NCBI GenBank assembly: GCA_020341835.1
Contig: CP070838.1
Coordinates: 1,153,310-1,195,426 of the forward strand
Reading direction: 5' to 3'
DNA: 42,117 nt
Source of the DNA: Thiotrichales bacterium
GTDB lineage: Bacteria; Pseudomonadota; Gammaproteobacteria; SZUA-229
Shown piece by piece: positions 21,330-35,495 of this stretch. A program made the translations under genes and the position numbers. Under the pieces are notes generated by a model. It made no database searches and had not been told where the DNA came from. It was given only the letters and a program-made list of their open reading frames with translations. How positions within the stretch are numbered: the stretch's first letter is position 1; every line of letters starts with the position of its first letter.

Positions 21330-21689
21330 GGGGGTGACACGGCTTCGACGTGGGTAGTGAAACCGGAGGTGCATGCCGAGGTGCGATGACCTCGTAAATC
21401 CAACCGCAAACTTTATAGTTGCCAACGACGACAACTACGCTTTAGCAGCTTAATAACCTGCGTAAAGCCCTCGGCCTGATGCGTGCCTGTACGCTCAGTT
21501 AACCGGGGTCGCTAATACAGGATCGCGATGAAGCATTTCCGGTGTGGATTCGTTAAAACTCATCCGGAATCGCTTTGTATTTTCCCTGCCCGTCGGGTAA
21601 TACATAGTTAAACTAATAGGCGGAATAAGCATGTAGAGCCGATGGCGGAGGACTTGCGGACGCGGGTTCGAGTCCCGCCACCTCCACCA
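21330..21689 (+). ncRNA. ssrA: Transfer-messenger RNA (tmRNA)
   Basis: 360-base one-piece tmRNA that rescues stalled ribosomes. The 5' end GGGGGTGACACGGCTTCGAC and 3' end CACCTCCACCA pair into a seven-base acceptor stem with a G-U at the third pair, the alanine identity element. The T-arm CGGGTTCGAGTCCCG precedes it. The tag frame starts with resume codon GCC at 21421, after TAGTT, and reads ANDDNYALAA then tandem TAA TAA (21451-21456). Pairings suitable for pseudoknots flank it. Followed by a terminator. Confidence 0.98.
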
Positions 21690-23717: not shown

Positions 23718-26249
23718 TCAGCTTGTGCCTTCACGTAATGTCCTCACCGGCGGATGGGCCAGTACGCTGCGCGTACCCAGCAGACCGGCGCTGGCAACGA
23801 TGACGATGCCGCTCAATAAGCCCGTCAACGCAACCGTGACATCAAGCTGGTATTCGAACTTGAAAATGGTCTCGGCCAGCACCCAGGCCAGCGTGGTTGC
23901 CGACAGGCCGGCGAGCAATCCGGACATTGCACCCAGGGTGGTGAACTCCGCAAACAGGCCGAGTATCAGCGTTTTCTTTTGCGCGCCCAGTGTCCGCAAT
24001 ACTGCATTCTCAAAGCGCCGCTCATCCTGGTTGGCCTGAATCGCGGCATACAGTACCGCCAGTCCCGCCAGAATCGTGAACAGGAAGATAAACTCGACCG
24101 CGAGCGAAACGCGGTCCATGATGCCGCGCACGCGCTGCATGATGGCATCGACATCGATCAAGGTGATATTGGGATACTGACGCACCAGCTGATCCAGCTG
24201 TCGGCGCTGCTCAGCGTCCAGGTAAACGCTGGTGACCCAGTTTGCCGGCTTGTCTTCCAGTATGCCCGGTGGAACAACCGTAAAGAAATTGATATTGAAC
24301 GTATCCCAGTCGACGGCGCGAAGGCTGGTGATGGTGAACTCGATAATCGATCCGTTGACGTCGAACCCGAGCACATCGTTCAGTGAAAGACGCAATGTAT
24401 TGGCCAGTTTTGCTTCCAGCGATAACATCGGTGCACCGAAATCCGCTCTGCTCCACCAGGCACCGGCAACCATCGTGTTATCGACCTGCATGTGTTCAGC
24501 CCAGGATAGATTGAATTCACGGGTGATCATGTGCCTGGCACGCTCGGTTTCGTAATCGGATGTGCGTACCGGTAAACCGTTGATCTCGACCAGCCGTGCC
24601 CGCACCATCGGATAGAGCCGGGTGTTGCGTACACCGCGCTCCCTGAAATAACTACTGATACCCTCGACCTGATCGGGCTGAACATTGATCACAAAATGAT
24701 TCGGTGCATTCGCCGGCAGGCTGCGTTGCCAGTCGTCGAGCAGGTCGGAGCGTACCGTCGACAACAGCAGCATCACCATGATGCCCAGTCCGAACGCCAC
24801 GATCTGAATCACGCTGCTGGCCGGTCGCCTGGCGATGTTGGCCAGACCGAATCGCCAGGCCACACCGACCCTGCTGCGCAAACGATTCAGTGCCAGGATC
24901 AGCAGGTACGCCGCCAGCGCAAGCAGCGCCAGTGTCGTCATGATACCGCCGAGTACGGTCGCGACCAGTCTGATGTCGCCGATCTGCCAGTACAGCAGCA
25001 AGGCCATACAGGCAATGACGCTAAGATAAATGATCCAGCCGCTGACGGGACTGACCGGCACATCCTTGCGCAACACCCGTAAGGGTGGAACCCGCTTCAG
25101 CGACAACAGGGGCGGGATCGCAAAGCCGGTCAGCATCACGATACCTGTGGCATAACCCAGCAACAACGCCTTGAACGATGGCGGCGGCAAATGCGCCAGA
25201 ACCAGCTGATCGAGCAGTTCGGTGATTACAAACTGGGTCAACAAGCCGAGCAGACAGCCGACACTGCTGGCTAACAGCGACAGCCACAGCATCTCCAGGG
25301 TAAACAAACGGATGATGACCTGTTGCGGCAGACCCAGGCAGCGCATCATCGCACCGGTGTCGAGATGTCGACTGGTGAAGCGGTACGCGACCGTGGCAAC
25401 CGCGACACCGGCGAGCAATACGCTGATCAGGGCGGCAAGGCCGAGAAATTGCTGTGCCCTGTCCAGTGCGGTATTGAGCTCGGGGCGCCCTTCTTCCACC
25501 GTCAGGATCTGCTCACCCTGCTGCAGGCTGTCCTCGATCGCATCGCGATAGCTGTCGATACGTTCACGCGCCCCGGCTATCAACACCCGGAAACTGGAAA
25601 GCGCCCCGGTCGTGATCAGGCCGGTGTCATCAAGGTCGGCCCGGTTCATCATCACGCGCGGCGCAACACTGAACATGTCACCGGCACGGTCGGGTTCATA
25701 ACGCAGTACCTTGCGTATCGTGAACGCCGAGTTGCCCAGGCTGACCTGATCGCCCACCTCGACATCCAGCCGCTGCAGCAGGCGCGCTTCGACCCAGACG
25801 TCCCCGGCAACCGGAATCTCCGTGGTGGCTTCATCATCGCCGAAAGGCGTATCACTGATACGCAGCACGCCGCGCAACGGGTAAGCTTCGCTGACCGCCT
25901 TGACCTCCGCCAGTTGCAGCCGTTCTGCGTGCAACACGATGCTGCGGAATGTGGTCGTGGTCGCGACCTGAAAATTATTTTCCCGTGCACCTGCGATATG
26001 ATCGGTCACATCCTGACGGGACGAACTGATCACCAGGTCTGCGCCGATCAGTTCGGCTGACTGCTCCTTCAGGCCACGCTCGATCCGGTCGGTGAAGAAG
26101 CCGACCGCGGTGATACTGGTCACCGCGATGATCAGGCCAATTGCAAGAATCGTGAGTTCGCCGCCACGCCAGTCACGCCATAGCATGCGCCATGAATTGA
26201 ACCAGAGAAACCTGAAGCCGCTGTGCGAGGCCCGCCCGGACATGGTCAT
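23718..26249 (-). CDS. ybbP: YbbP-like FtsX-family ABC permease
   Basis: 843 residues with about ten membrane segments: an N-terminal one (about 28-50), a central set, and a C-terminal FtsX block, giving two FtsX domains around large periplasmic loops. The layout is that of YbbP, predicted partner of the YbbA ATPase in an exporter of unknown cargo that is usually beside tesA. The start overlaps the ybbA stop by four bases (ATGA). A 113-base gap before the next gene holds nothing notable. Confidence 0.9.
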   Translation of the reverse strand: MTMSGRASHSGFRFLWFNSWRMLWRDWRGGELTILAIGLIIAVTSITAVGFFTDRIERGLKEQSAELIGADLVISSSRQDVTDHIAGARENNFQVATTTTFRSIVLHAERLQLAEVKAVSEAYPLRGVLRISDTPFGDDEATTEIPVAGDVWVEARLLQRLDVEVGDQVSLGNSAFTIRKVLRYEPDRAGDMFSVAPRVMMNRADLDDTGLITTGALSSFRVLIAGARERIDSYRDAIEDSLQQGEQILTVEEGRPELNTALDRAQQFLGLAALISVLLAGVAVATVAYRFTSRHLDTGAMMRCLGLPQQVIIRLFTLEMLWLSLLASSVGCLLGLLTQFVITELLDQLVLAHLPPPSFKALLLGYATGIVMLTGFAIPPLLSLKRVPPLRVLRKDVPVSPVSGWIIYLSVIACMALLLYWQIGDIRLVATVLGGIMTTLALLALAAYLLILALNRLRSRVGVAWRFGLANIARRPASSVIQIVAFGLGIMVMLLLSTVRSDLLDDWQRSLPANAPNHFVINVQPDQVEGISSYFRERGVRNTRLYPMVRARLVEINGLPVRTSDYETERARHMITREFNLSWAEHMQVDNTMVAGAWWSRADFGAPMLSLEAKLANTLRLSLNDVLGFDVNGSIIEFTITSLRAVDWDTFNINFFTVVPPGILEDKPANWVTSVYLDAEQRRQLDQLVRQYPNITLIDVDAIMQRVRGIMDRVSLAVEFIFLFTILAGLAVLYAAIQANQDERRFENAVLRTLGAQKKTLILGLFAEFTTLGAMSGLLAGLSATTLAWVLAETIFKFEYQLDVTVALTGLLSGIVIVASAGLLGTRSVLAHPPVRTLREGTS

Positions 26250-26941
26250 GCAGTCCCGCTGTCAACCAGCCTGCCGGCATCGAGCCGCAGGCGACGATCG
26301 CACAAGCGTGACAGTTGATCATCGTGTGTCGCCATGATCAGCGTTGTGCCATGCTCGGTGTTTAGCTCGAACAGCAGCTCGATGATGCGTTTGCCGGTCT
26401 CGCTGTCCAGGTTGCCGGTGGGCTCATCCGCAAACAAACAGCGCGGCTGTGTCGCGAACGCGCGCGCGATCGCACAGCGTTGCTGTTCGCCACCGGACAG
26501 CTGGTTTGGATAGTGATGGATGCGCTCACCGAGACCGACGCGGTCGAGCAGTTCTTCAGCCGTCCTGCGTGGATGGGGTGCCTGCGCCAGCTCCAGCGGC
26601 AGCATCACGTTTTCCAGCGCGGTCATACCGAACAGCAGCTGGAAATTCTGAAACACAAAGCCGACCAGTTCGGCCCTGATCTGTGCACGACCGTCTTCAT
26701 CGAACTCATTCAGCTTGCGATTGTCCATGATGATATCTCCGCGGGTCGGGGCGTCGAGACCGGCAAGCAGTCCCAGCAGCGTGGTTTTACCCGATCCCGA
26801 AGCACCCAGTACCGCCACCGATGTCCCCGCATCTATCTGAAAATTGATATCATCAAGCAGGGTCAGTACACCTTCACGGGTGGTGACCTGTTTGCCCAGC
26901 TTGCGGGCCTCGACAAAGGTGTTGGATGTGTTCTCAGCCAT
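26246..26941 (-). CDS. ybbA: YbbA-like ABC transporter ATPase
   Basis: 231 residues of the LolD/MacB ATPase group. Walker [11 protein letters not shown]-loop [10 protein letters not shown], signature LSGGEQQR and Walker [12 protein letters not shown], then a switch histidine in MATHDDQ. Pairs with YbbP. The start at 26941 gives the expected YbbA N-terminus ([16 protein letters not shown]); a longer upstream frame would run through tesA. Its ATG shares the CATG with the divergent tesA start, so promoters of both must lie inside the opposing gene or act from farther away. Confidence 0.92.
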
Positions 26942-27584
26942 GAATCCAGGAATCTCCGGTTTTATACTGACGCTGTTACTGGCGGTTGTGCCCGCGCATA
27001 ACCATACTGTGTTTGCCGCGAATATAACACCGCAATCGATTCTGGTTTTAGGCGACAGCCTCAGCGGCGCCTGGGGCATCGATACCGATGCAGGCTGGGT
27101 CGCGCTGCTGCAGCAGCAGGTCACTCAACAGGGCTACAACTATCGGGTGATCAACGCAAGCGTCAGCGGCGACACCACGCGCACCGGCCTGGGCCGGATT
27201 GATAACGCCCTGCAACAGCACCAGCCGGCAATCGTGATTGTCGCGCTGGGCGGCAACGACGGCCTGCGCGGTCTGGCATTCGCTGAAATCGAAAACAGCC
27301 TGGCGAACATCATTCAAAGCTGCCAGCAACAGAACGCACAGGTACTTTTGGCCGGCGTGCGCCTGCCGCCCAACTACGGGCCCGTTTACAATGAAAAATT
27401 CGTCGCGATTTACCGCAGCCTGTCAGAGCGTTACCAGATCCCGCTGGTCCCGCGCATGCTCGACCAGGTCGCCGGTAATCCGGCGATGATGCAGGAAGAC
27501 GGGATTCATCCGAGAGCGGTTGCACAGCCGCAGATCATGAAGAACGTCTGGGCAGGTTTGCAGCCAATGCTTGAAAAACAATGA
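26940..27584 (+). CDS. tesA: TesA, periplasmic multifunctional esterase (thioesterase I / lysophospholipase L1)
   Basis: 214 residues. Sec signal peptide (about 1-27, ending VFAAN). SGNH-hydrolase motifs: GDSLSGAWG (nucleophile Ser), GGNDG, and the C-terminal DGIHP with catalytic Asp and His. The ATG at 26940 overlaps the divergent ybbA start codon; no clear ribosome site is visible, and no better in-frame start exists with an intact signal peptide. The stop codon is the TGA inside the first repeat unit of an AT-rich element. Confidence 0.94.
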   Translation: MNPGISGFILTLLLAVVPAHNHTVFAANITPQSILVLGDSLSGAWGIDTDAGWVALLQQQVTQQGYNYRVINASVSGDTTRTGLGRIDNALQQHQPAIVIVALGGNDGLRGLAFAEIENSLANIIQSCQQQNAQVLLAGVRLPPNYGPVYNEKFVAIYRSLSERYQIPLVPRMLDQVAGNPAMMQEDGIHPRAVAQPQIMKNVWAGLQPMLEKQ

Positions 27585-27672: not shown

Positions 27673-28524
27673 TCACCGGTTTTCGGCCAGTTCGATAAAC
27701 ATGCGGATATAGTCGCTGGTCTTGTCGATAAAATAGGCTTTCTGTTCGTCCGTCATCGTGTGCGAAATCTGCAGGGTCAAACCGACCAGGATGCCACGGT
27801 TGATACCGGATTTTGCTTTGAGGGCGTCATCTTCATCCTGTTCGAAACCGGCAAACAAGTCGCGCAGGCGTTTACGCTTGTGCTGCGGCGTGTCTTTGTC
27901 GTCCAGTATCTGCCGGATGCCCTGCTGCCATTCGAGCCGCCTTTCCAGCCGCAGTTCAGCCGTGTTGATCAACCTGGCAGCAGCCGACTCGATCATTTGT
28001 TGCTGTTCGTCGGTGAGCTCACCGATCCAGTTTGCGAATGTTTCGCTCAGGCGCTCGCTGTAATCGGCGATTCGATCCTGATCAACCAGATCGATGAATT
28101 CATCGTGAAATTCTTCATTGCTATCTTCGAGATAGATGTATAGCTCCTGCCGCTGCTCACTGTCCAGCAGGGGCAACAGGTAGGCCATCTCGTCGTTGAG
28201 CTTGATATAGAGCGACAGCCAGAAGGCTTCCATCCGGTTGATATATTGCTCCAGCTCTTTTTCGGTCAGCCCCGCACCCACGTCCTGCTGCATGTCGCTT
28301 AACCATTCGGCATACTGCTTCAGCTGTGTATTACGGTGCCAGTCGAGCAGCACGATCGTTCTTTCATCCAGCTGGTCTTCGAGGACTCCGTCGAGTGTGA
28401 CCACACCCTCGACATATTGCGGTATCAGGTCATCCAGCTTGTTGTATACAGTTTTGAAGGAACAGGCTGCAACCAAACCGACCAGCACTGCAGTAACAAC
28501 ATGCCGAAACCGGTGGCTGATCAC
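27673..28524 (-). CDS. DUF6279 family lipoprotein
   Basis: 283 residues. Lipoprotein signal with LVAAC (Cys21), then FKTVYNKLDDLIPQYVEG, the start of the DUF6279 family (VYN..D..P.YV). The rest is predicted almost entirely helical, rich in Glu, Gln and Leu. Function unknown. The ATG overlaps the stop of the amidohydrolase gene by four bases, so it is translationally coupled to it and is probably the last gene of the ABC cluster. Confidence 0.85.
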   Translation of the reverse strand: MISHRFRHVVTAVLVGLVAACSFKTVYNKLDDLIPQYVEGVVTLDGVLEDQLDERTIVLLDWHRNTQLKQYAEWLSDMQQDVGAGLTEKELEQYINRMEAFWLSLYIKLNDEMAYLLPLLDSEQRQELYIYLEDSNEEFHDEFIDLVDQDRIADYSERLSETFANWIGELTDEQQQMIESAAARLINTAELRLERRLEWQQGIRQILDDKDTPQHKRKRLRDLFAGFEQDEDDALKAKSGINRGILVGLTLQISHTMTDEQKAYFIDKTSDYIRMFIELAENR

Positions 28525-29327
28525 CGCGGAAACAGGCGGTCGAGGTTGTTGCGTGAAATATCGGCAGCAACATCTTCCGGCAACTGGGCCAGCCAGTGGC
28601 GTGTTTCGGCGGCGATCTCGGGCAGGTCGGCCCAGCGGCTGGGTTTATAGGTGTCCATGCCGGCGAGAAAACGCTTTCGGTAGTCCGTCAGCAGCTGTTT
28701 CCATTGCGCGGTCAGTTGCTGTTCGTCATCGAGCATACCTTCGCGCAGTGACAGTTCGATATATAACATCGGATAGTCGTCAAGCAATTGCTTCAGCGTT
28801 GCAACCGGCACGTTGAAACCACCGTGTGCCCAGAGCACAGGGATATCCGGCGCTTTCTGGAGAAAAATGCGCATCCCCTCAAGGTCGGTATGTGGGTGCA
28901 GCGCGAGTTTGCGTTCACGCGCGAGCTCGATCATTTCCTCGATCGGTATCGAGTCAGCGTCTTCACCGAAAACGTGGAATTCACCGAATCCCCGGTAAGG
29001 CGCACGCGCCATGTGTTCCAGCAGGTATTCCCTGAGTTCGGGGTCATTAAACCAGAGATAGCGATGGCGCCAGCTCTTGTAGGGCCGCAGCATCGGAATC
29101 ACCAGGTCGGGTGCTTCCCTGTAGAGCAATTCAGCGCCTTCGGTGGGTGTGCCTGAAACCAGTGCGCGCGTTATGTTCTCCGACTTGAGCAGGTCGATGG
29201 CTTCTGTCGGCGGCAAGGTCTCCCAGACATCTTCGTCATAATGGATGTGCCCGTCATGAATATCGCCCGCATTCGCGATGACCGGTAACGCAGTCAGTAA
29301 CCATGTTATCAATCGATGCTTTCTCAC
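28521..29327 (-). CDS. Secreted amidohydrolase-family (TIM-barrel) metal-dependent hydrolase
   Basis: 268 residues. Signal peptide about 1-20 (VIANAGD). The amidohydrolase-2 metal motif GHIHYD lies near 26-31, with LHPHTD near 143, AHGGFNV near 168 and MDTYK near 220 as further metal-site candidates. Probably periplasmic. Substrate unknown. It follows the ZnuA-like gene by 17 bases and overlaps the DUF6279 gene. A secreted hydrolase encoded between a binding protein and a lipoprotein is unusual. Confidence 0.82.
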   Translation of the reverse strand: MRKHRLITWLLTALPVIANAGDIHDGHIHYDEDVWETLPPTEAIDLLKSENITRALVSGTPTEGAELLYREAPDLVIPMLRPYKSWRHRYLWFNDPELREYLLEHMARAPYRGFGEFHVFGEDADSIPIEEMIELARERKLALHPHTDLEGMRIFLQKAPDIPVLWAHGGFNVPVATLKQLLDDYPMLYIELSLREGMLDDEQQLTAQWKQLLTDYRKRFLAGMDTYKPSRWADLPEIAAETRHWLAQLPEDVAADISRNNLDRLFPR

Positions 29328-29344
29328 TGGCTGCCTCGGGTAGC

Positions 29345-30244
29345 TTACGGTTGATAGGCTTGTTCCAGCTCCATGATATTGTTTTTCATCACGGAGATAA
29401 AATCACCATCGTCAGGGACATTCGCGCCGGGCTCGAAGACCAGACTGTTCAGTCCCATCGCCTGCAGTCGTTTCACCGATTCAGCATTGGGTTGCCCCTC
29501 CCAGATCATCCAGGCCACAGGGTTTGTTTCGAGCCGTTGCTGCAGCGCTCGCCATTGTCCCGGTTCCGGTATGACATCGGGTTCCCACATCAGGCTGTCG
29601 AGTTTGATCTGATAACGTCGGGCGAGGTATTGATAGACCGGATGTGATGCCATGAACGGTTTCTCGGGAGCAGTGCTGACGATCGCCCGCATTGATTGAT
29701 CGAGTGCCAGCAGTTCCTGCTCGAGGACCGCGAAATTCTGCCTGAAAAGCGGCTGATGCTCCGGCCGCTTCTTTTCCAGCGCTGCCCGGATCGTGGCAGC
29801 CTGTTTTACTGCCTGGGTAAAATCGAGCCAGGTTGTGAATGCGGTACCGGCATGGGAATGTTCACCGCCGGGTCCATGCTGATGAGTAAGCGTTGCCTCG
29901 ACGCTGATGTAGTCCTGCTGGAATGCAGCGGAGGTATTGACAAGCTTGCGCTGCGGCAGGCTGGCCTGCTTCAGCCATTTTGCATAGTCTGCTCCGTTCA
30001 GCAGGATCAGATCAGCTCGCTGAAATGCCGCGATCTCGTCGGCACCCGGCTGCCAGAATGCCGGATCGACATCAGGCGGCACCGGAAAATGAACATCGAT
30101 GTGTTCTGCGCCAATGCGTTGTGCGAAGTAAGCCAGCGGGTAGTTCACGGCAAAGACCTGCAGCCTGTCTTCCGCACTTGCCACGCTGACCAGAACCAGC
30201 AGCACCATGGCGGATAATCTTGATAGTGTTTTCATGACCTTCAT
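29345..30244 (-). CDS. ZnuA-like (cluster A-I) metal-type solute-binding protein, divergent
   Basis: 299 residues with a Sec signal (about 1-24, SVASAED). Overall fold blocks match ZnuA-type binding proteins: NYPLAYFAQRIG, ADLILLNGADYAKWL, a His-rich loop (HQHGPGGEHSHAG, 121-133), SHPVYQYLARRY with His201, and a C-terminal DFISVMKNN with Asp281. However DPAFW replaces the usual DPH-x-Y (Ala62) and TTWLDF replaces the HxWLDP site (Thr137), so two of three expected zinc-binding histidines are absent. It follows an FtsX-type permease by 15 bases. ATG at 30244 chosen; 30235 is an alternative. Substrate unknown. Confidence 0.85.
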   Translation of the reverse strand: MKVMKTLSRLSAMVLLVLVSVASAEDRLQVFAVNYPLAYFAQRIGAEHIDVHFPVPPDVDPAFWQPGADEIAAFQRADLILLNGADYAKWLKQASLPQRKLVNTSAAFQQDYISVEATLTHQHGPGGEHSHAGTAFTTWLDFTQAVKQAATIRAALEKKRPEHQPLFRQNFAVLEQELLALDQSMRAIVSTAPEKPFMASHPVYQYLARRYQIKLDSLMWEPDVIPEPGQWRALQQRLETNPVAWMIWEGQPNAESVKRLQAMGLNSLVFEPGANVPDDGDFISVMKNNIMELEQAYQP

Positions 30245-30259
30245 ATCAACCCACAATCT

Positions 30260-31438
30260 TTAACTGAAAATCAACATTGTTACCAGCATCTCGGCGTTGG
30301 TATCGATCACATACAACAGGCCTGCGCTGATCACGGCGCTGGCGAACGCAATAATGATAATCTCCGAGGCAATCAGGTTCACCGCCGTCATCCGGCTGCA
30401 GCCCAGCCTGAAAATCGTATTCAGTTCACTCTGACGGAGTCGTATCGACAAGGCGAACACCAGTATGATTGCCAGCACGGTCGCCAGCGTGACGATGGCA
30501 ATCACTGAATCAATCACGCTCTTGATGCGAAAGATGTTCTGCATCAACCCATCGATAACTTCAGTCGGACGCACAAGGTGGTATTGTGGATGCTCGAGGT
30601 ACCGGCCGCGCAGCAGGGTGCCCGACTTGGCGTCGTTGGGAACCGCGAGCAGTGCAGTCAGCGGATATCCCGACAGGTCTCCGTGAAAGTGAAAACTGCC
30701 GATATTCTCATCGGTAATTTCGGTGAATTGAAATAACTTGGCATTGGCGGTGATCGTATCCCGGGTACGCTCGAGTATGACGCTGCGATCCGATGGGTTT
30801 TTCAGGTCCTCGTGACCATGCCCCAGCCCTTCGATCACCCAGGCGGTCTTCAGGTCGACAAACACGGCGCGGTCATCTGCTGTGTGATTGCGTTGCAGGA
30901 TACCGCTGATCGTCATTTTCAGTGGATAGACACCGGCCAGATCGAACAGGGTTTCCGGTGAAGAAACAATAGTATCACCCGGTTCAAGCCCGTAGGCATC
31001 GGCTATATCAGCTCCGAGTACACATTCGCCTAGCACGGTGAACAGCCGCCCCTGGTCGATCTGTATATTATGAAAATCAAAGTAATCGATGGTCGTAGCG
31101 ACTATCGGATGGTTACGGGCCTGAAAACGTATATATAAAGGTATTGCATAGGCCAGCCCGCTATCCGAGACTTCATCGGCAGCCTGCATCGTAAAAATCC
31201 CGGGCGTTTCGTCGTCAAAATAAAGGCTGTTCATGACAAGGTCCAGAGCGGAGCCTCGGGCACCGAGCAGCAACGGCGTCGAGTCGGCACGCGACTGTAA
31301 CAACTGCTGGCTCTCGGCCAGCAACAACTGTAATGCCAGGGGCAGGAATGCTATCAGGGTTATGCAGGCAACCAGCGTCGCCGTACGCAGCTTGTTGAAG
31401 GCGAGATAACGCAACGCGATATAAAAGCTGCTGATCAA
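30260..31438 (-). CDS. MacB/FtsX-type ABC permease
   Basis: 392 residues. One N-terminal membrane segment (about 17-37), a large periplasmic domain of about 270 residues, then an FtsX-like membrane block near 305-390. This is the four-helix type VII layout of MacB/LolC, used for mechanotransmission or export rather than metal uptake. The start is TTG, overlapping the ATPase stop (TTGA); no nearby in-frame ATG exists, and a GAGGG lies a few bases upstream. Its partner proteins are the ATPase before it and the ZnuA-like protein after it. Confidence 0.86.
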   Translation of the reverse strand: MISSFYIALRYLAFNKLRTATLVACITLIAFLPLALQLLLAESQQLLQSRADSTPLLLGARGSALDLVMNSLYFDDETPGIFTMQAADEVSDSGLAYAIPLYIRFQARNHPIVATTIDYFDFHNIQIDQGRLFTVLGECVLGADIADAYGLEPGDTIVSSPETLFDLAGVYPLKMTISGILQRNHTADDRAVFVDLKTAWVIEGLGHGHEDLKNPSDRSVILERTRDTITANAKLFQFTEITDENIGSFHFHGDLSGYPLTALLAVPNDAKSGTLLRGRYLEHPQYHLVRPTEVIDGLMQNIFRIKSVIDSVIAIVTLATVLAIILVFALSIRLRQSELNTIFRLGCSRMTAVNLIASEIIIIAFASAVISAGLLYVIDTNAEMLVTMLIFS

Positions 31439-32103
31439 CTCGCGCCCTCGTTTCGGTAATCGAGAAAATCGATCACTCGGTCAAAACGTGATAACAAATC
31501 ATGGTCGTGGGTTACCGCGAGCAAGGTCGCCTCGCTCGAGTCGACGCTGTCGAAGAGTAAATCGAGGATCTTGCCCTTGTTGCGCGGATCCAGATTACCC
31601 GTCGCTTCATCGGCAAGAATCAAGCCGGGTTGCGGCAACAGAGCACGACAGATCGCAGCACGCTGTTGTTCCCCCTGTGAAAGTTCACCAGCGTGATGTT
31701 TCAATCTGTCGCCGATACCGAGCCCGTCTGCCAGGTCGATCGCGCGTTGCTGCACCTCGCGAGTCAGATTCAGTGCGCGCGTGATGCGATACGGGTGCAG
31801 GATATTGTCGAGTACATTCAGGTAATCAAGTAAACCGAAATCCTGAAACACAAAACCGATATTGCTGATTCTGAAATCCCGGCGTTTCGCATCACTGCTC
31901 GAACTGACTTCCATATCAGCAACGCTGACTTTGCCCCGTTGCGGCGTGATGATGCCTGCAACCAGGTTCAGCAAGGTTGTTTTGCCCGAACCGCTGGGTC
32001 CAATCACGGCAACTTTTTCCCCCTGTGCCACGGACATCTGTGGGATCGACAGACTGAACTCACCCTGGGGGTAGCTGAACTCGACGGCCTCAATCCGGAT
32101 CAT
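31435..32103 (-). CDS. LolD/MacB-type ABC ATPase
   Basis: 222 residues. Walker A GPSGSGKTT near 35-43, Q-loop FVFQDFGLLDY, signature LSQGEQQRAAI (Gln where Gly is usual), Walker B LILADEATGNLD, switch His in VTHDHD. Belongs to the lipoprotein-release and macrolide-export ATPase group, not to the ZnuC group expected beside a ZnuA-like protein. Overlaps the permease gene by four bases. 51 bases downstream of the large membrane protein gene. Confidence 0.92.
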   Translation of the reverse strand: MIRIEAVEFSYPQGEFSLSIPQMSVAQGEKVAVIGPSGSGKTTLLNLVAGIITPQRGKVSVADMEVSSSSDAKRRDFRISNIGFVFQDFGLLDYLNVLDNILHPYRITRALNLTREVQQRAIDLADGLGIGDRLKHHAGELSQGEQQRAAICRALLPQPGLILADEATGNLDPRNKGKILDLLFDSVDSSEATLLAVTHDHDLLSRFDRVIDFLDYRNEGAS

Positions 32104-32154
32104 GATCGCATAGCGGTTGAATGTGTCTGTACATCAGATGGGTATTCTGCAAGG

Positions 32155-33996
32155 TCATGATGGCCCGTTTCCTTTCGTTTCAGCTCCGGAAAATGGATCG
32201 AGACGTTTTTCTTCGAGTAGCTCCACGCCGGTTATTTTCCAGTGGTCATCGATCACCTCGACCGTTACCAGCGCATCGTAATAATTTTTGCGCGTGTGTA
32301 TATGGCCCCAGTGTCCGACCGTACCCTGTGCGGTCCATTTCGCCTGCAATTCGAATCCCTTGTTCTGCGATTGCGTCGGTTCGGCCTGTGCCTGAATGAT
32401 CTCGATGTCCTGTACACGTGCCTGCGCACCACCAGCCTTTTTCACGGCGAATGACTTGCGGTTCTGTAGATAGATTTCCTCCAGCAAATCACCCTGCACA
32501 CTCAGGGCCAGCTTGTCATACACGTCTGACTCGCTTCTAAAATCAAACGAGCGGTATACATTCTTGAGCAAACTGTGCATGACCCGTTCCGATTCGTCGG
32601 GTGAAAGCCCGCTAACCAGCGCGACCGGCCGGTTGAATTTTACGTTCAGGTAAGGGAACGCGATCACCGCAACTGCCAGGCCGGTTATTGCTGTAAACAG
32701 CGGTATTCGGTAACTCCGTTGCTGACGGCGGCGCTGCCACAGCCACCACAGGGACATCACGGTTAACAACACGCCTGCGACGCTGAGCAGCGGTATCGGT
32801 AGATGATTGACGGTTTCCTTAACCGACACCTGCGCAACCGTTGGTGGCGTATAGGTTTTCAGATAATTCGTCCAGGTATGGATGTTGTCATCGGGCGTCA
32901 GGTAGGTCGGTAATGGCCCGGCCGGATCGGTGGCAGTCGCCGGTACGCGCTGCACCTGTTCGGTGAACAGTTCCCAGTCAACCGTCACCTGCTGCGGGAT
33001 ACCTTCGGTCAGGTATGCGAGAATTACACCGACAATCGCGGTAGATATTTCCAGTCTTTGTGGCTGCTCGAGTATCTGTATGCCGGCGATACCGACAGTG
33101 ACATAATTGCTGCGGTCCAGGATCGGTTTGAGCGCTTTGCCATCGACCACGACCGGATTCTTTGCCAGCAAAAACTCACCGATACGCTGCTTTAAAACGT
33201 CGAGCTCATCAGCTTCGATATATTCATCGCCGCGTAAACCCAGATCCATCCATTCTTCCAGGTCTTTGACGCGAATCAGGATTTCATGGCGGACTTCGTG
33301 CGGTTCGATATATAAAAAAGACATCATCGCCGATTTGTGATGACGTTTCAGATTGGGATTATCGAACTTTGAATACCAGGGGTCGCCCCAGTCGAGGTTC
33401 AGTTTTGCCGGTGCGCCCAGATAACGGAAATCGATCACAGGTACTGCCTTGTGGTAGGCAATAAAACCCAGCGTCACCTCGGCTCTGCCTTCCTCATCCT
33501 GTGGAGGCACCATGGTAACGTGCCGGGGTTTGCCATCGAAGGGATAGATCAACTCGGCATAAAGTACACGTTTGTCATCCGGTGGTTCAGGCACGCGCTG
33601 GCGCGTATAGGGATTGATCATGCCCGCGAACGGTGAGCGACGGTCGACACGCATCCTTGGTTCCACCAGCACCAGTTCTGCAGGCAGGGCATTGCCATCT
33701 TCATCCTTGAAGACCAGCGTTTTGGTCGCAAAGTCTTTGACCCGCTGAGCGAGTGGTTCGCGCTCGATGTCCTTGTCTTCTATCCAGTCGTCCGGGATCA
33801 GTTGCTCGAAGGTCTGGAGATCACCAACGTAGACCTCCAGCTTGACCTTGACGTGGTCATCGAGGACGTAGATTTCGGCGATATTGGGCGATGTTTCTGC
33901 ACCGGTCAGGTTGATCCAGTCAGACTGTGCTGTGAAGGAAAAAACGGTAACAAAGACAAGTAGTGCCAGGGTGGGGAGATGTTTGACTGGATTCAT
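32155..33996 (-). CDS. Large exported membrane protein, unrecognised
   Basis: 613 residues. Signal peptide about 1-24 (TAQSDW), an extracytoplasmic region of about 375 residues, two membrane helices (about 400-420 and 431-450) joined by a basic loop (QRRRQQRSYR), and a C-terminal domain of about 160 residues. The C-terminal domain (about 540-600, including GHWGHIHTRKNYYDALVTV and DDHWKITG) has the look of an NTF2-like fold. The N-terminal part has a beta-rich pattern recalling the exported domain of the HupE-like protein at 2703-3842, but that is only an impression. First gene of the ABC cluster; start at 33996 chosen for the signal peptide. Function unknown. Confidence 0.8.
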   Translation of the reverse strand: MNPVKHLPTLALLVFVTVFSFTAQSDWINLTGAETSPNIAEIYVLDDHVKVKLEVYVGDLQTFEQLIPDDWIEDKDIEREPLAQRVKDFATKTLVFKDEDGNALPAELVLVEPRMRVDRRSPFAGMINPYTRQRVPEPPDDKRVLYAELIYPFDGKPRHVTMVPPQDEEGRAEVTLGFIAYHKAVPVIDFRYLGAPAKLNLDWGDPWYSKFDNPNLKRHHKSAMMSFLYIEPHEVRHEILIRVKDLEEWMDLGLRGDEYIEADELDVLKQRIGEFLLAKNPVVVDGKALKPILDRSNYVTVGIAGIQILEQPQRLEISTAIVGVILAYLTEGIPQQVTVDWELFTEQVQRVPATATDPAGPLPTYLTPDDNIHTWTNYLKTYTPPTVAQVSVKETVNHLPIPLLSVAGVLLTVMSLWWLWQRRRQQRSYRIPLFTAITGLAVAVIAFPYLNVKFNRPVALVSGLSPDESERVMHSLLKNVYRSFDFRSESDVYDKLALSVQGDLLEEIYLQNRKSFAVKKAGGAQARVQDIEIIQAQAEPTQSQNKGFELQAKWTAQGTVGHWGHIHTRKNYYDALVTVEVIDDHWKITGVELLEEKRLDPFSGAETKGNGPS

Positions 33997-34341: not shown

Positions 34342-34719
34342 CTACTGATCCGTCTTTTGAAAAACCTTGTCCCATTGCTCACGGGACATAGTGTTTTTTA
34401 GCTCGAAGCGCAGCGCCAGCATTGCCTGTTGATATTGAATGCGTTGATCGTAAGACGCATCCAGGTTGCGCTGCAATTCGGCGGTCGTGGTTTCATAGCG
34501 GTGAATCAGCTTGAGCAGGTCTTCTTCTCCATCACCGTCAGCATCGGCGTGGTCTTTCGTTGTATCTTCCATTCTGTCAACGATATCCAGCGCAGCCTTG
34601 CGGGTATCTTCATTCTGGATCTGTGACTTGATGTTGTCTTCCATTTGATCGATACCGTCCAGCATCAGGCCGGCTTCGGAACCGAGAAACAAGAGTGCGA
34701 GCAAAGTAGCAATTAACAT
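34342..34719 (-). CDS. Small exported protein with DxDxDGxxD calcium-type loop
   Basis: 125 residues, not recognised. A short N-terminal hydrophobic segment (about 1-18) suggests export or anchoring. The middle carries DADGDGEED (near 60-68), fitting the DxDxDGxxD calcium-loop pattern. The rest is charged and helical, ending in SREQWDKVFQ. It follows the next lipoprotein gene by 14 bases, with AAGGA 6 bases before the ATG, so the two form an operon. The two proteins look distantly related (similar length of helical domain and an E-W-D near the end). Confidence 0.75.
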   Translation of the reverse strand: MLIATLLALLFLGSEAGLMLDGIDQMEDNIKSQIQNEDTRKAALDIVDRMEDTTKDHADADGDGEEDLLKLIHRYETTTAELQRNLDASYDQRIQYQQAMLALRFELKNTMSREQWDKVFQKTDQ

Positions 34720-34733
34720 GTTATATCCTTTTA

Positions 34734-35180
34734 TTACATATACTTAAGATCTACTTTTAAAGCTTTTTCTCGTGCTTTTTCAAGTGCATCCCACTCATTG
34801 GCGGTCAACAGCTTCTGCATTTTGGCGTGAATTTCGAGCACCCGCTTCTGCCGCGCCCTGGCCTGGTTATTCATGGTCATGAAGAAACCCTGGAACGCTG
34901 ATTCCCTGGCGTCATAGTTTGCATTCAGAGAACGGAAGGTTTCAAAATCCTTTTTATGTTGCTTTTCTGCATCTGCAAACAGTTCTCTCAATCGGTCTGC
35001 CAGTTTAGCCACCTTCTCTGCCCGCTCAGGATCGGTCACCGTGTTGAGGATTTCCTGGCGGAACTGTTCAGTCATCTGGTCCGGTGTATCCACTGTCCTG
35101 TCTTTACCTGCGCAGGCAGATAGTCCCAGTGCCAGCAACAAAACCATTGCAACTTGACGAGTAGTATTTAAAGCAGTCAT
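34734..35180 (-). CDS. Small helical lipoprotein
   Basis: 148 residues, not recognised. Lipoprotein signal with LSAC (Cys23), then a charged, helical domain ending near TANEWDALEKA. The start at 35180 (giving a compact signal peptide) is preferred to 35207; neither has a clear ribosome site. First of two genes with the exported protein at 34342. The 288-base region upstream (35208-35495) shows only short dyads such as GCTAA-TCA-TTAGC near 35262 and no gene. Confidence 0.78.
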   Translation of the reverse strand: MTALNTTRQVAMVLLLALGLSACAGKDRTVDTPDQMTEQFRQEILNTVTDPERAEKVAKLADRLRELFADAEKQHKKDFETFRSLNANYDARESAFQGFFMTMNNQARARQKRVLEIHAKMQKLLTANEWDALEKAREKALKVDLKYM

Positions 35181-35495
35181 TAAATTGAACCAGATTTGAT
35201 CGTTCATCTAGATAAAAACGCCGTATGTAAAATGCGCAGACAGGATCTTTTTCGGTTATCAGCTAATCATTAGCCAAAACGTGTTTATTCTGCTTCCAGA
35301 GGCCATATATTATCAGCTTGCTGATGATGAGCCAATTTCATGGGTTTCCAGCACGCGGGTAATCACCAGCGCGATGCTAATTCAGCTTGTTTTCGTTTTT
35401 GAACCTTTCAACCCCGTCACTCTTCGCATCAATTGCTGGCGGCAGTGAGGAGGCTGCGGCTCGAGAAATGACAATGTTTGCAAAAAACTTCTGGT

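Follow-up and report, generated by a model that had tools for sequence, protein, structure and literature searches.

An undescribed, conserved envelope module of four genes, representing a variant of the Zrg kind of ABC (ATP-binding cassette) system, is encoded in the genome of a Thiotrichales bacterium (SZUA-229; assembly GCA_020341835.1, contig CP070838.1). The module lies within a stretch of 42,117 nucleotides, called the window here, and belongs to a run of six minus-strand genes at positions 27673-33996. It comprises a membrane protein of 613 residues (mem613), a LolD-like ATPase, a permease of the FtsX/MacB fold and a ZnuA-like binding protein. From gene context and motifs, on which all functional statements below are based, the module probably acts on a divalent transition metal in the periplasm, nickel being the most likely one. 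This widespread and so far unnamed metal module connects the Zrg machines, of which little is understood, with the recently described N-terminal chelators of the "anglerase" and DUF4198 kinds. It also makes a puzzle testable, namely how a MacB-type mechanotransmission ABC system, for which no ion pathway is known, acts in metal homeostasis.

Conservation of the four-gene core

When 84,980 genomes were scanned with a permease alignment, 232 relatives were confirmed, of which 80 loci sharing 46-76% identity were available for comparison. These loci belong to Gammaproteobacteria, Desulfobacterota and, at the level of metagenome-assembled genomes (MAGs), Nitrospinota, Myxococcota, Planctomycetota and others; most are MAG contigs, and assignment to the rarer phyla possibly reflects contamination. 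The core is also found in Alphaproteobacteria. Among the 80 loci, the gene order mem613-ATPase-permease-ZnuA-like recurs and, where enough sequence is available on both sides, all four genes are present in 30 of 45 loci and three of them in 14 more. In addition, the 4-base overlap between the ATPase and permease genes is identical in 43 loci. Because of this recurrence across phyla and of the constant overlap, the four-gene core is the non-random part of the six-gene run. Among the Gammaproteobacteria sampled the module is rare, a close permease being present in 6 of 274 genomes and the mem613 C-domain in 5 of 321 (four permease-bearing genomes and one fragment), and in one alphaproteobacterial family 15 of 150 genera have it. 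Named plasmid copies are carried by Paracoccus liaowanqingii and by the methanotroph Methylomagnum ishizawai.

A preliminary description of this DNA had proposed the six genes as one system, with a binding-protein fold that presents or senses a ligand and a secreted hydrolase that acts on it. All six open reading frames are indeed present and closely set (gaps of 51, -4, 15, 17 and -4 bases from mem613 to the lipoprotein gene, that of 15 bases separating the permease end from the ATG at 30244 of the ZnuA-like gene), including the permease gene with its TTG start. Moreover, no terminator or promoter signal, which could have split the run into separate units, rose above the shuffled background. 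Pfam searches supported the families assigned to the ZnuA-like protein (PF01297, 7.8e-44), the ATPase (ABC_tran, 1.7e-29), the permease (MacB_PCD, 4.5e-8) and the lipoprotein (DUF6279, 9e-20), while mem613, described as unrecognized, and the 268-residue protein gave no family above the cut-off. Co-occurrence, however, extends to the core four only: by tblastn, the hydrolase and the DUF6279 lipoprotein were found beside none of 87 related loci (at least 2.5 kb of downstream sequence being available in 51 of the 80 loci). Both genes are thus local passengers. Despite the close spacing in this single genome, a six-gene envelope machine presenting a ligand to the hydrolase and including the lipoprotein is therefore very improbable and was rejected; as the hydrolase lies outside the module, its proposed action on a presented ligand falls with it. 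Since the 268-residue protein has no Pfam family, its amidohydrolase label depends solely on a DGHIHY-type motif.

Upstream of mem613, the window encodes two small secreted proteins of 125 and 157 residues (p125 and p157; 34342-35207). They were rejected as module members, p125 having a single homolog upstream of mem613 (in related locus L044 only) and p157 none.

Features of the transporter and its partners

Profile comparison identifies the permease as a distant sister of ZrgB/PA4065. It matches ZrgB-type profiles with an hhalign probability of 99.9 (E 1.4e-33, 361 columns), the alignment running from end to end except for the tail, and its next-best homologs in the host and in relatives are of the ZrgB/PA4065 type, not LolC or MacB. 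The MacB_PCD match itself reaches 34.1 bits for a cut-off of 27, and a Protein Data Bank (PDB) sequence search with the permease gave no meaningful match. Several of the distant ZrgB-type matches are adjoined by PF10986 ZrgA genes and others by DUF3299-like genes, the latter recognized by eye. Both the window-type and the ZrgB-type permeases carry histidines in the same loop, after a conserved D-R/K strand; in the former, the motifs GLGHGH and FHFHG are found without exception in 80 sequences and recur in the scanned Paracoccaceae members. Because the tail following the coupling motif has about 60 residues versus about 105 in ZrgB relatives (some 45 fewer), the permease is predicted to lack the C-terminal transmembrane helix 4 (TM4) and to have three rather than four membrane helices, as counted by hydropathy alone. 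Its FtsX Pfam match similarly ends at position 69 of 120.

These features bear on the possibility that the module is a machine extracting lipoproteins or lipids, similar to LolCDE or MlaFEDB, with a degenerate ZnuA as a structural part. Such a function would suit the LolD-like ATPase, the FtsX fold and the FadL-type outer-membrane protein gene that about 10 of 100 loci have within or close to the operon. It is nevertheless improbable, as the nearest kin of the permease is ZrgB and not LolC or LolE, and as the invariant His motifs and the metal-protein partners speak against it. The FadL-type gene (PF03349; e.g. L060, L065, L045 and L072) is located twice between mem613 and the ATPase gene, and its product could be an outer-membrane entry route.

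The host encodes a second ZrgB-like permease with its ATPase (G000:C1:931996-934000, corresponding to L032:6996-9000). No PF10986 ZrgA gene was found in the host genome, in which the sequence upstream of this second pair is partly masked. The window contains a further pair, a LolD-like ATPase and an 843-residue FtsX-type permease (23718-27584), divergent from a TesA-like esterase gene, which resembles the ordinary YbbA-YbbP-TesA arrangement.

The second component, mem613, represents a protein family absent from Pfam and from PDB sequence searches: the latter gave no meaningful match, and Pfam searches with its homologs returned nothing convincing. In an AlphaFold2 model (pLDDT 83), a periplasmic part is followed by two membrane helices, compared with one in memC of the Paracoccaceae loci, and by a C-domain predicted to be periplasmic. 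The closest PDB matches of the whole model are Cu-bound Ang-1 (9gce) and ZrgA/PA4063, PARC6-type folds coming close behind. The N-domain alone (pLDDT 92) retrieves Ang-1 9gce first (E 4.5e-5, TM 0.47-0.49) and then ZrgA (E about 3e-3), with TM values for these matches of about 0.4-0.5. The predicted mature protein starts with Asp in all full-length homologs but one, which has His (L109), and Asp is another N-terminal chelating residue (PMC12537917). In the C-domain, the motif HWGHxHxRxNxY is fully or almost fully conserved. This C-terminal part is fused behind a HupE_UreJ_2 domain in L102 and, as judged by eye, in L117; a PpiC-type isomerase gene adjoins both fusions (L102:6099-9151 and L117:6341-9311).

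The ZnuA-like protein, while a member of PF01297, has lost two of the three canonical metal ligands, DPH being replaced by DPA and HxW by TTW in about 95% of 65 homologs. Canonical zinc binding was rejected from this ligand loss, and the automatic label "zinc ABC substrate-binding protein" is corrected, the canonical zinc site being missing. What is conserved instead is a His loop of consensus HxHGxxGxHxH, along with many invariant aromatic residues (W68, W143, W224, W252, Y39, Y208 and Y210). The two other PF01297 proteins of the host have the canonical histidines, and one of them is encoded next to a Zur gene whose Zur box is perfect. Positions of the genes and of selected residues are collected in Table 1; the window also contains a tmRNA gene at 21330-21689 (Rfam RF00023, 230.6 bits).

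Table 1. Genes of the six-gene run and residues of interest, with positions in the window.
Feature	Positions	Strand	Remarks
mem613	33996-32155	minus	613 aa from ATG; signal peptide, N-domain, second beta domain, two membrane helices, C-domain
LolD/FtsE-type ABC ATPase, 222 aa	32103-31435	minus	Pfam, homology
FtsX/MacB-fold permease, 392 aa, TTG start	31438-30260	minus	Pfam, profile comparison
ZnuA/TroA-type (cluster A-I) binding-protein homolog, periplasmic	29345..30256	minus	likely ATG at 30244
268-aa secreted amidohydrolase-like protein	29327-28521	minus	motif only; local passenger
DUF6279 lipoprotein	28524-27673	minus	Pfam; local passenger
mem613 Asp26 codon	33919..33921	minus	predicted first residue of mature protein
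mem613 His182 codon	33451..33453	minus	sole invariant column in N-domain alignment
mem613 C-domain VGHWGHIHTR	32290..32319	minus	H562, H565, H567 invariant
Permease H207-G-H209 (GLGHGH)	30812..30820	minus	invariant
Permease H250-F-H252 (FHFHG)	30683..30691	minus	invariant
ZnuA-like Ala66	30059..30061	minus	place of first canonical metal His (DPH to DPA)
ZnuA-like Thr142	29831..29833	minus	place of second canonical metal His (HxW to TTW)
ZnuA-like His205	29642-29644	minus	third canonical His, retained
ZnuA-like His loop HQHGPGGEHSH	29852..29884	minus	H125, H127, H133, H135; invariant in 65 homologs

Nature of the metal and direction of transport

The indication for nickel comes from the genes accompanying the module in relatives. 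In Paracoccaceae, 18 loci have the order memC-ATPase-permease-DUF4198-small His1 protein-ZnuA-like, the DUF4198 and small His1 genes being present in all 18 permease-bearing loci searched. Most of these DUF4198 and small proteins have His as the first residue after the signal peptide, and the small N-terminal-His protein is a candidate NikL. A DUF4198 protein has been shown to bind nickel with a Kd of 18 nM, its gene neighboring NikR and TonB genes (PMC12537917). NikR (PF08753) is encoded immediately upstream of the module in L176. In L173, on the Methylomagnum plasmid, it is separated from the module by a few genes, and a single-mismatch NikR-box-like site is located in the interval between the NikR and TonB genes. 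A [NiFe] hydrogenase is encoded by the host; among gammaproteobacterial genomes, such an enzyme is present in four of the six that bear the module and in 33 of the 179 others (p 0.015 by Fisher test).

Based on these data, a mechanism can be proposed. Anchored in the membrane, mem613 would capture the metal by its N-domain, using the free N-terminal Asp or His together with His182. The metal would be handed along exposed His motifs, namely HWGHxH in mem613, GHGH and FHFHG in the permease and the His loop in the ZnuA-like protein, the latter possibly acting as a metal shuttle. The LolD-like ATPase would hydrolyze ATP and the MacB-fold permease relay this event, lever-like, to drive transfer for uptake, while the absent fourth helix of the permease may come from a helix of mem613. 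By extension, the module might define a new class of transporters for transition metals (nickel?), built from a three-helix MacB-fold permease, a helix provided by an obligate partner and a ZnuA-fold carrier which uses a His loop, its classical site being dead; this last proposal is put forward tentatively.

Several observations weigh against nickel uptake by a Zrg-type module. No MacB-fold transporter is known to move ions into the cytoplasm. In the genome containing the window, no nickel gene adjoins the module, and the hydrogenase association relies on six genomes, a small sample. NikR-box-like sites are not enriched upstream of the module (four single-mismatch sites in 1.35 Mb), and no riboswitch was found in the window or near eight relatives. 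The fold matches of mem613 are modest (TM 0.4-0.6), and its likeness to ZrgA is at the level of fold only, because the sequence-profile comparison of the two was not significant and gives no confirmation. In methanotrophs, CopC partners point to copper, and PA4064/65 has been argued to be an exporter (PMC11481552).

The CopC genes, located in the operon of the Methylococcaceae loci L036, L087 and L173, suggest that the metal may vary. That the same module serves copper, or zinc, is a possible yet distinctly less favored reading, to which the Cu-bound Ang-1 as top match of the N-domain and, for zinc, the ZrgB kinship also lend weight, whereas the DUF4198 and NikR partners and the lack of a Zur box argue against it. 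Zur regulation was rejected: no site within three mismatches was detected in the window although the positive control, the host znuA-zur locus, was recovered with a perfect box, and two sites were observed upstream in relatives versus 0.7 expected. In methanotrophs, a conserved block before mem613 contains genes for a sialidase-like (BNR) protein, CopC and an unknown 230-residue protein (L173:2865-6058, L036 and L087). A secreted protein of the metallo-beta-lactamase fold is encoded no more than a few kb away from the module in about 25 loci (e.g. L044:3834-5063).

Alternatively, the module could export a metal or a metal-chelator complex, the opened site of the ZnuA-like protein binding the chelate and not the bare ion. 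Pyochelin-cobalt export has been proposed for PA4064/65, and the export data obtained on PA4065 (PMC11481552), along with the MacB fold and the ZrgB kinship, are consistent with this direction, as are the loss of two metal His and the many invariant aromatics in the ZnuA-like family and the TonB receptors adjoining the module on the Methylomagnum plasmid. Against it, no gene for a MacA-type adaptor or TolC is conserved beside the module in related loci, no chelator biosynthesis genes were noted, and the recurrent partners are nickel-acquisition genes (DUF4198 and NikR). Export thus appears rather unlikely, and metal handling for uptake is retained as the preferred reading.

Comparison with known systems

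The closest counterparts of the module are ZrgABCDE of Vibrio cholerae, in which ZrgA is required for zinc-limited growth (PMC9820375), and PA4063-PA4066 of Pseudomonas aeruginosa. The preliminary description assumed that MacB-type machines work without periplasmic metal-binding partners, to which these systems are a known exception (PMC9820375, PMC11481552). They share with the module a separate LolD-like ATPase, a MacB-fold permease with a His-rich loop at the same place and periplasmic metal-protein partners. In contrast, the module has the ZnuA-like protein and mem613 in place of a ZrgA (PF10986) or DUF3299 gene, its permease apparently lacks TM4 and it has no Zur box.

Compared with ZnuABC, the binding protein genuinely belongs to PF01297 and has the third His and the His loop, but it is devoid of two canonical metal His, and the permease is of the MacB_PCD/FtsX type instead of ABC-3 (PF00950). 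A canonical ZnuA-Zur-ZnuB locus exists separately in the host, whose ABC-3 genes are located elsewhere in the genome. With the type VII ABC systems MacAB-TolC, LolCDE and FtsEX, the module has in common the ATPase and the permease fold, while it differs by a permease with three predicted helices instead of four, a separate nucleotide-binding domain and metal-type partners.

Like the anglerase Ang-1 - HupE/UreJ-2 permeases, mem613 has a periplasmic domain, perhaps of similar fold, with a putatively chelating N-terminal residue and a fused membrane part, although its residue +1 is Asp and not His and it has no permease domain of its own. Finally, NikKMLQO and the Paracoccaceae loci both combine a transporter with DUF4198 and a small His1 protein; in the module, this transporter is a MacB-fold ABC system and not an ECF MQO one. 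Attention was drawn in 2009 to orphan NikK/NikL genes for which no transporter was known (PMC2667541), and for some of them this module may be the transporter.

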